Source of the DNA: Candidatus Rokuibacteriota bacterium
GTDB taxonomy: Bacteria; Methylomirabilota; Methylomirabilia; Rokubacteriales; CSP1-6
NCBI GenBank assembly: GCA_016179925.1
Contig: JACPCG010000167.1
Coordinates: 1-40,905 of the forward strand
Direction of reading: 5' to 3'
DNA length: 40,905 nt
The position numbers and the translations under genes were made by a program. Position 1 is the stretch's first letter; the number at the start of each line of letters is the position of its first letter. Shown piece by piece: positions 21,571 through 23,782 of this stretch. The notes under the pieces were generated by a model. The model was not told the origin of the DNA, made no database searches, and saw nothing but the letters and a program-made list of their open reading frames with translations.

Positions 21571-21718
21571 TAGGGCTCCGTGGGTCGCATGGCCGGCCCC
21601 GACGGCGGGGCGATTCTGCCTGAGCGCCCTCGGCGGTTCAAGGGGATCGGCGCTCGACACGGCGCCCGGGCCGTTCCATCTGATCTATAATCCGCATATC
21701 TCAGCAAGGAGGCTCGTG

Positions 21719-22810
21719 ATGACGACGCATCGACTGACCCGTCGCAAGCTCCTCACGACCGCGGCCGGCGCCGCCGTCCTCGGATTTCCGCTCCCACTCC
21801 GCGCCCAGCCGAAGACGTTCAAGGTCGGCGCGATCCATCCGGTGACGGGCCCGCTCGCCGAGCCCGGCCAGGCGTGCCGCCTCGGTGCGCAGATGGCGGC
21901 CGAGGCGATCAACGCGGCGGGCGGCATCAAGTCCAAGGGCGGCATCAAGCTCGAGCTGCTGGTCGGCGACACGCAGACCAAGCCCGAGAACGGCCGCGTC
22001 GAGGCCGAGCGCGTCGTCCAGCAGGGCGCGCAGATGCTCCTGGGGTCGTTCGATTCCGGCTCGACCAACGCGATGGTGTCCGTCGCCCAGCAGCGGAGGG
22101 TGCCGTTCCTGGTGGACATCGCCGCGGCCGACCCGATCACCGCCAATGTCGCGAAGGCGGTGAGGGAGGGCCAGCAGAAGGTCCAGTACGTCTACCGCAA
22201 CTTCCCGACGGGCTCGAGCTTCGGCCGCAAGGCCGTCCAGTACTTCACCGAGATCTTCAGGGAGGCCGGGGTGTCGCCGAAGCGCGTCGTCCCGATCACG
22301 CGGCCGGCCTCCGCGCAGCTCCTGCTGCCGGAGATCCGGAAGCAGAAGGTCGAGATCCTGGGCGTCGTCAGCCCGGGGAGCCCGGGCCTCTACGAGGCCG
22401 GCCAGATCGCGGCGCTCAAGGAAGACCTCGAGTACGTGATGGCGAGCGTGCCGTGGCCCAACTTCAAGAACCCGAAGACGAAGACGCTCGCCGAGGAATA
22501 CCAGAAGCGCTCCGGCGGCAAGACCTTCGACACGAACTCCGGCTACTCGTACGACGCCATGTTCGTCATCGCCGACATCCTCGAGCGCGCGGCGCGGCTG
22601 GACGACCCCGACACGATCGTCGACGCGATGAGGAAGACGAACTACACGGCCGGCCTGATGCAGTACGGTGGCCCCATCCTCTTCAACGAGATCGGGGACA
22701 ACCCGAACGCCATCCCGACGATGATCCAGATCCTCGGTCAGAAGCCTGTGGCCGTGTGGCCCAAGGAGGCCGCGCTCCAGAAGTTCGTCTTCCCGCGACC
22801 CAAGGCCTAG
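21719..22810 (+). CDS. Liv-type ABC transporter substrate-binding protein with Tat-like signal
   Basis: 363 aa. The ATG at 21719 has AAGGAGG 6 nt upstream; TATAAT at 21686-21691 may be the -10. The N-terminus (THRLTRRKLLTTAAGAAVLG) is a twin-arginine-type signal, cut near LRAQP. The mature protein is a type I binding protein: FKVGAIHPVTGPLAEPGQAC, LLVGDTQTKPENGRVEAERV, LLGSFDSGSTNAMVSVAQQR. It opens the cassette binding protein-LivH-LivM-LivG-LivF-MetE-like, all on the plus strand. A perfect 32-bp inverted repeat separates it from the permease gene, which probably allows higher expression of the binding protein than of the membrane parts. Confidence 0.93.
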   Translation: MTTHRLTRRKLLTTAAGAAVLGFPLPLRAQPKTFKVGAIHPVTGPLAEPGQACRLGAQMAAEAINAAGGIKSKGGIKLELLVGDTQTKPENGRVEAERVVQQGAQMLLGSFDSGSTNAMVSVAQQRRVPFLVDIAAADPITANVAKAVREGQQKVQYVYRNFPTGSSFGRKAVQYFTEIFREAGVSPKRVVPITRPASAQLLLPEIRKQKVEILGVVSPGSPGLYEAGQIAALKEDLEYVMASVPWPNFKNPKTKTLAEEYQKRSGGKTFDTNSGYSYDAMFVIADILERAARLDDPDTIVDAMRKTNYTAGLMQYGGPILFNEIGDNPNAIPTMIQILGQKPVAVWPKEAALQKFVFPRPKA

Positions 22811-22816
22811 GACACC

Positions 22817-22899
22817 AGGGCAGCGGGGGCCGGAGCCCCTCCGAGACCACGTCGACAACAGCTTACGGGTCTCGGAGGGGCTCCGGCCCCCGCTGCCCT
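22817..22899. repeat. Perfect 32-bp inverted repeat between binding-protein and permease genes
   Basis: Arm 22817-22848 is the exact reverse complement of 22868-22899, with a 19-nt loop. The arms are GC-rich (core GGGGCCGGAGCCCC) and begin 7 nt after the binding-protein stop and end 14 nt before the LivH ATG. As RNA it would form a very stable hairpin. Possible roles are stabilising the upstream message, partial termination, or a mobile REP/MITE-like element; no target-site duplication was recognised. Confidence 0.9.
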
Positions 22900-22912: not shown

Positions 22913-23782
22913 ATGGATCCGACACTCGTTTTGCAGGGCGTGCTGAGCGGCTTGCTGTTCGGCGGGGTGTACAGTCTCATGGCCGTCGGCCTCACGCTGA
23001 TCTTCGGCGTGATGCGCGTCGTGAACTTCGCCCACGGCGACATGATGGTCTGGGGCATGTACCTCGCGCTCCTGCTCTCGACGCGCGCCGGCCTCGACCC
23101 CTACCTCGCGTTCGTCGCCTGCGCCGCGGCGCTCTTCGCGCTCGGGCTCGCCGTCCAGCGCGGGCTCGTGGACCGCATCGTGGACGCGCCCCACGAGATG
23201 CAGATCCTCCTCATGCTCGGCGTGGCCCTCGTGCTCGAGAACCTCGCCCTCGTGGCCTTCGGGCCCGAGCCGGCGCGTGTCCGGTCGGCGCTCTCCACCG
23301 CGACGGTGTGGCTCGGCCCCGTGTTCGTGGACGTCGCCCGGCTCGTGACGTTCGCCGTCGCGGTGGTGCTGACGCTCGCGCTCTACCTGTTCCTCTTCCG
23401 GACCGACGTCGGCCGGACGGTCCGCGCCGCCGCCGACAACACCTACGGTGCGCTCGTGATCGGCACCGACGTGCGGCGCGTCTACGCGGTCGCGTTCGGC
23501 GTCGGCGCGGCGTGTGTGGGCGCGGCGGGCGCGCTCGTCTCGCCGATCCTCCCGTTCCAGCCGGCCACCGGGCTCTCGCTCTCGGTGGCGTCGTTCAACA
23601 TCGTGATCATCGGCGGCATGGGGAGCCTGCTCGGCGCCTTCATCGGGGGGCTCCTCGTCTCGGTCGCCGAGTCGCTGGGCGCCGTCTTCCTCAAGCCCTC
23701 GCTGAAAGAGCTCTTCAGCTTCTCGCTGCTGATCGTGATCCTCCTGTTCCGCCCCGCCGGCCTCTTCGGCAAGCGCCTGTAA
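22913..23782 (+). CDS. livH: Branched-chain amino-acid-type ABC permease (LivH family)
   Basis: 289 aa from the ATG at 22913. About eight hydrophobic helices are visible, starting with LLFGGVYSLMAVGLTLIFGV (about 14-33). The family segment VVNFAHGDMMVWGMYLAL follows, and ADNTYGALVIGTDVRRVYAV is the cytoplasmic EAA-like loop that docks the ATPases. GGMGSLLGAFIGGLLVSVAE near 225-245 is also diagnostic. It forms the channel with LivM. The stop overlaps the livM start by one base (TAATG), so the pair is co-translated. Confidence 0.93.
   Translation: MDPTLVLQGVLSGLLFGGVYSLMAVGLTLIFGVMRVVNFAHGDMMVWGMYLALLLSTRAGLDPYLAFVACAAALFALGLAVQRGLVDRIVDAPHEMQILLMLGVALVLENLALVAFGPEPARVRSALSTATVWLGPVFVDVARLVTFAVAVVLTLALYLFLFRTDVGRTVRAAADNTYGALVIGTDVRRVYAVAFGVGAACVGAAGALVSPILPFQPATGLSLSVASFNIVIIGGMGSLLGAFIGGLLVSVAESLGAVFLKPSLKELFSFSLLIVILLFRPAGLFGKRL

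Follow-up and report, generated by a model that had tools for sequence, protein, structure and literature searches.

A perfect inverted repeat in a rokubacterial transporter operon looks like a short-cap copy of a dispersed palindromic repeat family

Why should a perfect inverted repeat lie between the binding-protein gene and the permease gene of a bacterial transporter operon? The question arises from a window of 40,905 nt, the whole stretch of DNA analysed here, which is an entire contig (C80) of a Candidatus Rokuibacteriota genome. A first-pass annotation had described a 32-bp inverted repeat with no mismatches between a binding-protein gene and a permease gene, and both the repeat and its gene context are confirmed. 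The repeat at 22817-22899 consists of 32 + 19 + 32 nt, and its arms are 100% complementary. At the composition of the window, the expected number of perfect arm pairs of at least 32 nt with a loop of up to 200 nt is 5.6e-11. The hairpin ranks first among the 25 inverted-repeat pairs listed of the 46 in the window, and once it is removed, the longest perfect arm left is 14. As RNA, it folds with −89 kcal/mol, compared with −45.6 (sd 3.6) for 200 shuffles (z −12). It occupies most of a 102 nt spacer that runs from the TAG stop of the binding-protein gene to the permease start. The operon encodes, in order, a branched-chain amino-acid binding protein (Peripla_BP_6), a permease (BPD_transp_2), a second permease and two ABC ATPases; the closest permeases among named relatives belong to Candidatus Rokuibacteriota MAGs. 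The features discussed below are as follows.

21716..22810, + strand: binding-protein gene (Peripla_BP_6)
22808..22810, + strand: TAG stop of the binding-protein gene, within the word CTAG (22807-22810)
22817..22848, + strand: 5' arm, ending CCTCC-GA-GACC, with GA at 22843-22844 in place of the usual TC
22825..22891, + strand: match to R2, the family model for short loops (72.6 bits, with the window as 1 of 15 training rows; leave-out profile E 1.2e-6)
22849..22867, + strand: short cap, a 19-nt loop ACG...ACG, with a bulged A at 22849 and CG at 22850-22851 that could pair with CG at 22866-22867 as in the family structure
22868..22899, + strand: 3' arm, starting GGTC-TC-GGAGG like the family
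22913..23782, + strand: permease gene (BPD_transp_2)

No T-run follows the stem on either strand: the bases that come next are CCAGTCG on the + strand and GGTGTCC on the opposite one. The hairpin has 0 matches in Rfam at the gathering threshold.

Copies of the arms and of the apex

Is the hairpin confined to this operon? The first-pass annotation had raised the possibility of a dispersed element, on the grounds that the two arms share a core, and had proposed searching the genome with one arm. Neither arm has a second copy on either strand of the genome (3.57 Mb in 223 contigs, 81% complete), an outcome that, taken alone, would have led to the idea being dropped by the annotation's own test. 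Nor is the shared 15-base core dispersed: with at most 1 mismatch allowed, GGGGGCCGGAGCCCC is found at 5 places in the genome, of which the window arms account for 2, and this is the level of the reversed control pattern (4). A 17-base pattern with 3 mismatches was discarded, with 136 matches against 167 for its control. The whole hairpin as query finds itself and one weak match on contig C72 (E 6.1e-4, 71%), a decayed hairpin within a called gene that, by eye, we take to resemble a gamma-glutamyltransferase gene. What supports the idea of a dispersed element is the apex motif together with the overall architecture; neither the GGGGCCGGAGCCCC core nor the arms, which have no other copy, contribute to it.

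The apex in question reads CCTCC-UC-GACC-A-CG...CG-GGUC-UC-GGAGG and sits atop paired arms that are specific to each copy. The family that shares it comes with three kinds of cap, short (as in the window), medium (~66 nt; 63-68 nt in this genome) and long (~79 nt), and with many copies per genome. Within the sample, it is found in a single bacterial family, and its long- and medium-cap copies are frequently positioned behind stop codons. As a DNA query, the long cap has matches in 26 of 60 genomes at E 0.01. At 4e-21 or better there are 11 of 60, all from the bacterial family of the window and mostly with many copies; matches in the remaining genomes are weak. Model R1, built from eight long-cap copies at the orthologous junctions described below, has at least 64 matches in this genome at E 0.001 among the 150 of 4315 candidates that were scored. 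Its best E against the window is 0.67, not a convincing match. The 53 long-cap matches that were read (the 64 listed less 11 whose loci were not fetched) are mostly near-perfect hairpins, many of them ~300 nt from CTAG to CTAG.

The pattern CGACCACG-N3..30-ACGGGTCTCG occurs at 13 places in 5 of 40 genomes, compared with 0 for the reversed control; most of these places fold into long hairpins and two are decayed. The window does not fit the pattern because of its GA. Model R2, built from 15 short-loop copies including the window, yields 115 matches, a number that includes some places on both strands, from 16 of 60 genomes, again all from the same bacterial family. In this genome, it matches 12 places, namely the window, the C72 hairpin and ten hairpins with a 63-68 nt cap. 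The layout of short- and medium-cap copies comes from 45 of the 115 matches, comprising all 12 places here and mainly short-span matches elsewhere, with 70 left out. The medium cap starts with ACGCTAGC in 7 of 10 copies and ends with CAGAAGC-N-ACG in 8 of 10.

Does the window belong to this family? A sequence profile built without the window scores its hairpin at 23.8 bits (E 1.2e-6), and the apex alone at 17.1 bits (E 1.9e-4). The best score in 20 other genome stretches (~263 kb) is 12.1 bits (E 0.038) and the next is 10.6 bits. Because both scores exceed this background, the window is taken as a family member. The hairpin aligns in register with other short-cap copies, except for GA instead of TC in the 5' arm, and carries GACC-A-CG...CG-GGTC-TC-GGAGG in register on a paired stem. 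It lacks the UC/UC internal loop beside GACC and has a paired GA/UC there. This feature is variable: the ten medium-cap copies have UC/UC (4), GA/UC (3), GC/GC (2) and UC/GA (1). The hairpin looks like a short-cap copy of a dispersed palindromic repeat family rather than a switch particular to the operon.

The family is apparently one of palindromic DNA repeats in uncultured Rokubacteria that lacks a catalogue entry. Five long-cap loci have 0 Rfam matches at E 1; seven loci with short, medium and long caps have one, at E 0.3 and outside the hairpin. Among the titles listed in a search of the open-licence literature, none was on such repeats in Rokubacteria or on matching interspersed hairpin repeats. 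The possibility that the long cap contains a structured RNA domain was considered and set aside as too weak, with 86.2% of bases paired compared with 84.2% in shuffles, stem included, in a model-fitted alignment. The medium cap has no consensus pair lying within it.

Several loci are of separate interest. A medium-cap copy (L316, G000:C22:11129-11242) and a short-cap copy (L329, G013:C117:12342-12404) are preceded by almost identical words, CTCATGGCGTCCCC, which could reflect an exchange of caps or two hits at one site. At L248 (G000:C61:11980-12324), two long-cap copies, each from a different subfamily, are oriented oppositely ~130 nt apart. Another dispersed-looking hairpin, GCGCCGGC...GCCGGCGC followed by GGGGGGAGG, is seen in the L095 spacer and in the right flanks of L254 and L275.

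Position in operons and genomes

How did the hairpin come to lie in this spacer? The junction between the binding-protein and permease genes is readable in 35 of 38 relatives (L099, L105 and L106 are excluded for an unreadable binding-protein end). At 15 of the 35, the spacer is at most 16 nt, leaving no room for the hairpin. Eight junctions (L069-L074, L087, L089) hold a long hairpin with the conserved ~79 nt cap, L086 holds a hairpin with a short loop, L084 gives a match to the short-loop model on its reverse strand (G009:C11:8284-8345, E 6.7e-4), and ten have other spacer sequence. Since the two genes abut in many relatives, the hairpin probably came in by insertion behind the binding-protein TAG. 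In a tree built from the binding protein together with both permeases (omitting L103, a near copy of L104), the eight long-hairpin taxa form one supported clade (SH-aLRT 99), and the window groups with six hairpin-free taxa at an SH-aLRT of 91, under the 95 mark. Parsimony gives three hairpin gains, with L084 scored as without. By eye, the window and part of the long-cap clade have flank words in common, TAGGAC on the left and a CGACTGG-like word on the right, and so the two hairpins, instead of inserting separately, may have a common origin followed by cap loss.

The same junction holds other hairpins elsewhere. Three other Rokubacteria (L097, L100, L036) have a different short hairpin, TCGGAGGGGGYC-TCGAC-GRCCCCCTCCGA, and hence the place behind the binding-protein stop holds unlike hairpins across lineages. 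In three distant NC10-type relatives (L101, L103, L104), the spacers contain repeated GAGAGCCGA-like words along with an imperfect, terminator-like hairpin, GTCAGAAG...CTTCTGAC, followed by a T-run.

Placement across genomes was scored with a gene caller that uses a simple codon score (limit 40 for background genes, 25 beside hairpins). Long-cap copies lie between genes in 52 of 53 cases: 22 between tandem genes with the motif in the direction of transcription, 14 between tandem genes against it, 11 between convergent and 2 between divergent genes, with one side unread for 3. Nine of 35 short-cap copies and 1 of 10 medium-cap copies lie inside called genes. Between tandem genes, copies of all caps follow transcription 39 times and oppose it 20 times (p 0.018); the split is 22 to 14 for long caps (p 0.24) and 17 to 6 for short and medium caps together (p 0.035). 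This modest sense-strand bias speaks for some transcript role or for preferential insertion, and no other result weighs as much against reading the family purely at the DNA level.

Stop codons beside the copies are skewed in a cap-specific manner: CTAG accounts for 29 of 54 stops beside long-cap copies (background 23/187), and GTAG for 8 of 11 beside medium-cap copies (background 18/187). Beside short-cap copies, enrichment is weak, with TAG of any kind at 8 of 19 compared with 45 of 187. CTAG flanks 52 long-cap copies on both sides in 14 cases, on one side in 17 and on neither in 21; in the control, 0.1% have both and 3.2% one. The window copy has CTAG at its left side only, and no target duplication or terminal repeat was seen there. 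The ends of the long class have 41 matches in this genome (81% complete). Among the loci with such ends, seven that lack a listed core were read, and all have both ends within ~350 nt and no gene between; four are ends only, one has its core reversed and two keep part of the core. As candidate movers, RAYT (PF01797) and DDE_3 (PF13358) were each searched for and number 0 in this genome, at its 81% completeness. PF01797 is found in 5 of 15 genomes searched, including one that carries short-cap copies (G009), so a tyrosine transposase may be the mover there; the PF01797 locus read in that genome does not contain the apex with ACGGGTCTCG.

Likeness of the arms

What keeps the two arms of a copy alike? 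In ten medium-cap copies, the mean likeness of the two arms of a copy is 97.8% (median 100%), that of arms from different copies 63% and that of shuffled arms 36.7%. For 28 short-cap copies (7 of 35 could not be anchored and were left out), the values are 78.6% within (median 88.9%) and 59% between. The arms are thus related between copies, yet they match within a copy far better than inheritance alone would leave them. Since short-cap copies are often imperfect, arm repair, if it exists, is not general. Covariation is strong: over 15 short-cap copies, 14 pairs have changed on both sides, a level reached in 0 of 500 shuffles.

Perfect covarying stems are usually read as proof of a functional RNA. 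If pairing in the RNA is under selection, G-U intermediates are expected on the strand that is transcribed; an A-C mismatch is the same mutation viewed on the opposite strand. With 98 copies read in the orientation of the motif, there are 54 G-U and 89 A-C (p 0.004), which argues against an RNA read in motif sense. In transcript orientation, 59 copies between tandem genes have 40 G-U and 43 A-C (p 0.83), and the eight long-cap junction copies have 7 G-U vs 13 A-C. Long-class cores lie in one orientation between their two unlike ends in 12 cases and in the other in 6, for the 18 resolvable of 28 classifiable of 53 copies. Because the bases beside GACC vary as described above and the long-class cores flip, copying of one arm onto the other at the DNA level appears to fit better than RNA selection. 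Overall, the lack of a G-U excess, the CTAG ends, the flipped cores and arms that are alike within but not between copies make the family lean towards a DNA-level repeat. The first-pass annotation had offered recent origin or strong selection for the perfect arms; selection on RNA loses ground with the missing G-U excess, and the family suggests a third way, likeness of arms arising at the DNA level. A known process of this kind is template switching, for which homogenised arms, multi-base changes and inverted spacers are among the effects reported in PMC8604942 and PMC8794818. At L270/L274 (G011:C127) and L280 (G011:C218), a second copy of the hairpin's 3' half lies ~60-110 nt downstream, possibly a scar of template switching.

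Explanations and known systems

Taken as a whole, the observations are best explained, with somewhat more confidence than doubt, by the hairpin being a short-cap copy of dispersed, non-coding palindromic DNA repeats of Rokubacteria. The hairpin would have been acquired by insertion after the TAG that ends the binding-protein gene, and replication template switching within the DNA hairpin would copy one arm onto the other and so keep the arms alike. In the window, such an event would have turned the usual UC/UC mismatch beside GACC into a paired GA/UC. When transcribed, the repeat would form a very stable stem without a U-run, and a by-product may be more binding-protein than permease mRNA. There are several points against this explanation. 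The window copy has CTAG on one side only and no duplication or terminal repeat, neither candidate mover is found in the 81% complete genome, over a quarter of short-cap copies (9/35) fall within called genes, and the excess of TAG next to short-cap copies is slight. The orientation bias is more than a purely DNA-level repeat would require. In addition, cap loss competes with separate insertion, and the tree fork between the window and the long-cap clade has an SH-aLRT of 91 only.

Alternatively, selection could have favoured the hairpin as an intercistronic stabiliser of mRNA, as at malE-malF, in which the stem halts 3'-5' exonucleases after the permease part is cut, yielding more binding protein than permease, and compensatory selection on RNA keeps the arms paired. 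The site, the great stability, the missing T-run after either arm, the covariation and the sense bias all agree with this, as does the protection of the substrate-binding gene of ABC operons by E. coli hairpins without U-tracts, reported in PMC5927463. The G-U excess is missing on either strand reading, 15 of 35 orthologous junctions lack the hairpin, the family lies behind many unrelated genes with 11 of 53 long-cap copies between convergent ones, and the conserved UC/UC and bulged-A apex is superfluous for mere stability; we consider a selected stabiliser rather unlikely. A milder version fits with the preferred reading of a repeat copy: once inserted, the hairpin could possibly have a malE-malF-like effect on mRNA, and mRNA protection may be a reason why a hairpin that is not conserved at the junction is tolerated. 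The differential expression of binding protein and membrane parts that the first-pass annotation had proposed would then be a possible by-product.

An intrinsic terminator or attenuator between the two genes would also be a stable, GC-rich stem in this position. The stem has no T-run on either strand, and this explanation is the least probable; the terminator scan takes loops of 3-8 only, and the window hairpin lies beyond its reach, so that the absence of a listed site is uninformative. Finally, the palindrome could have arisen once, in place, by a snap-back template switch, its likeness to the family being due to chance. The arms are perfect and private to the window copy, and template switching is reported in PMC8794818 to create perfect stems in a single event. 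The apex match obtained without the window in training (the leave-out scores above) and the register shared with other short-cap copies make such a coincidence improbable.

What are the implications if the hairpin is a repeat copy? A broader and quite tentative proposal is that the apex alone is faithfully inherited, with arms that drift in concert through template switching, caps that are swapped, cores that flip, and insertion that favours TAG stops (CTAG for long caps, GTAG for medium). If only the apex is inherited, natural copies could be used to measure arm-to-arm copying of DNA. If the stop-codon preference holds, it would bear on how palindromic repeats find harmless sites in compact, GC-rich genomes. 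More generally, strong covariation without support from wobble pairs makes the family a cautionary case, and also a place to test how selection on RNA pairing can be distinguished from template switching in DNA.

Which known systems does the family resemble? The REPs (repetitive extragenic palindromes) described in PMC3733652 are 20-40 bp long; their stems span 5-13 bp, and their GTAG or CGTC tag is unpaired. Like these REPs, the family consists of dispersed palindromes with varying loops, mostly downstream of genes, in tandem or convergent settings and sometimes intragenic, and GTAG adjoins medium-cap copies at 8 of 11 stops. Unlike REPs, it has stems of 18 bp to over 40 bp (32 bp in the window), copy-specific arms and its conserved part at the apex, and this genome yielded no RAYT; in place of an unpaired end tag, the window has CTAG at its left, as a stop codon. 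The long-cap class resembles MITEs in being ~300 nt long and geneless, with inverted ends at CTAG and some copies reduced to the ends. Unlike a MITE, the element is almost wholly one palindrome, its core flips relative to its ends and no matching transposase was found; the window copy has neither the terminal inverted repeats nor the target duplication of a MITE. The E. coli malE-malF intercistronic hairpin, whose effect on mRNA decay has been measured (PMC5927463), is likewise stable, lacks a U-run and lies at a binding-protein/permease junction; the window hairpin differs in not being conserved at its junction and is known from its sequence. Template switching, as described in PMC8794818 and PMC8604942, is reported for RNA genes and yeast coding genes. 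Here, it would act across a whole repeat family, where homogenised arms, multi-base changes and inverted spacers resemble those described for mutation of inverted repeats.
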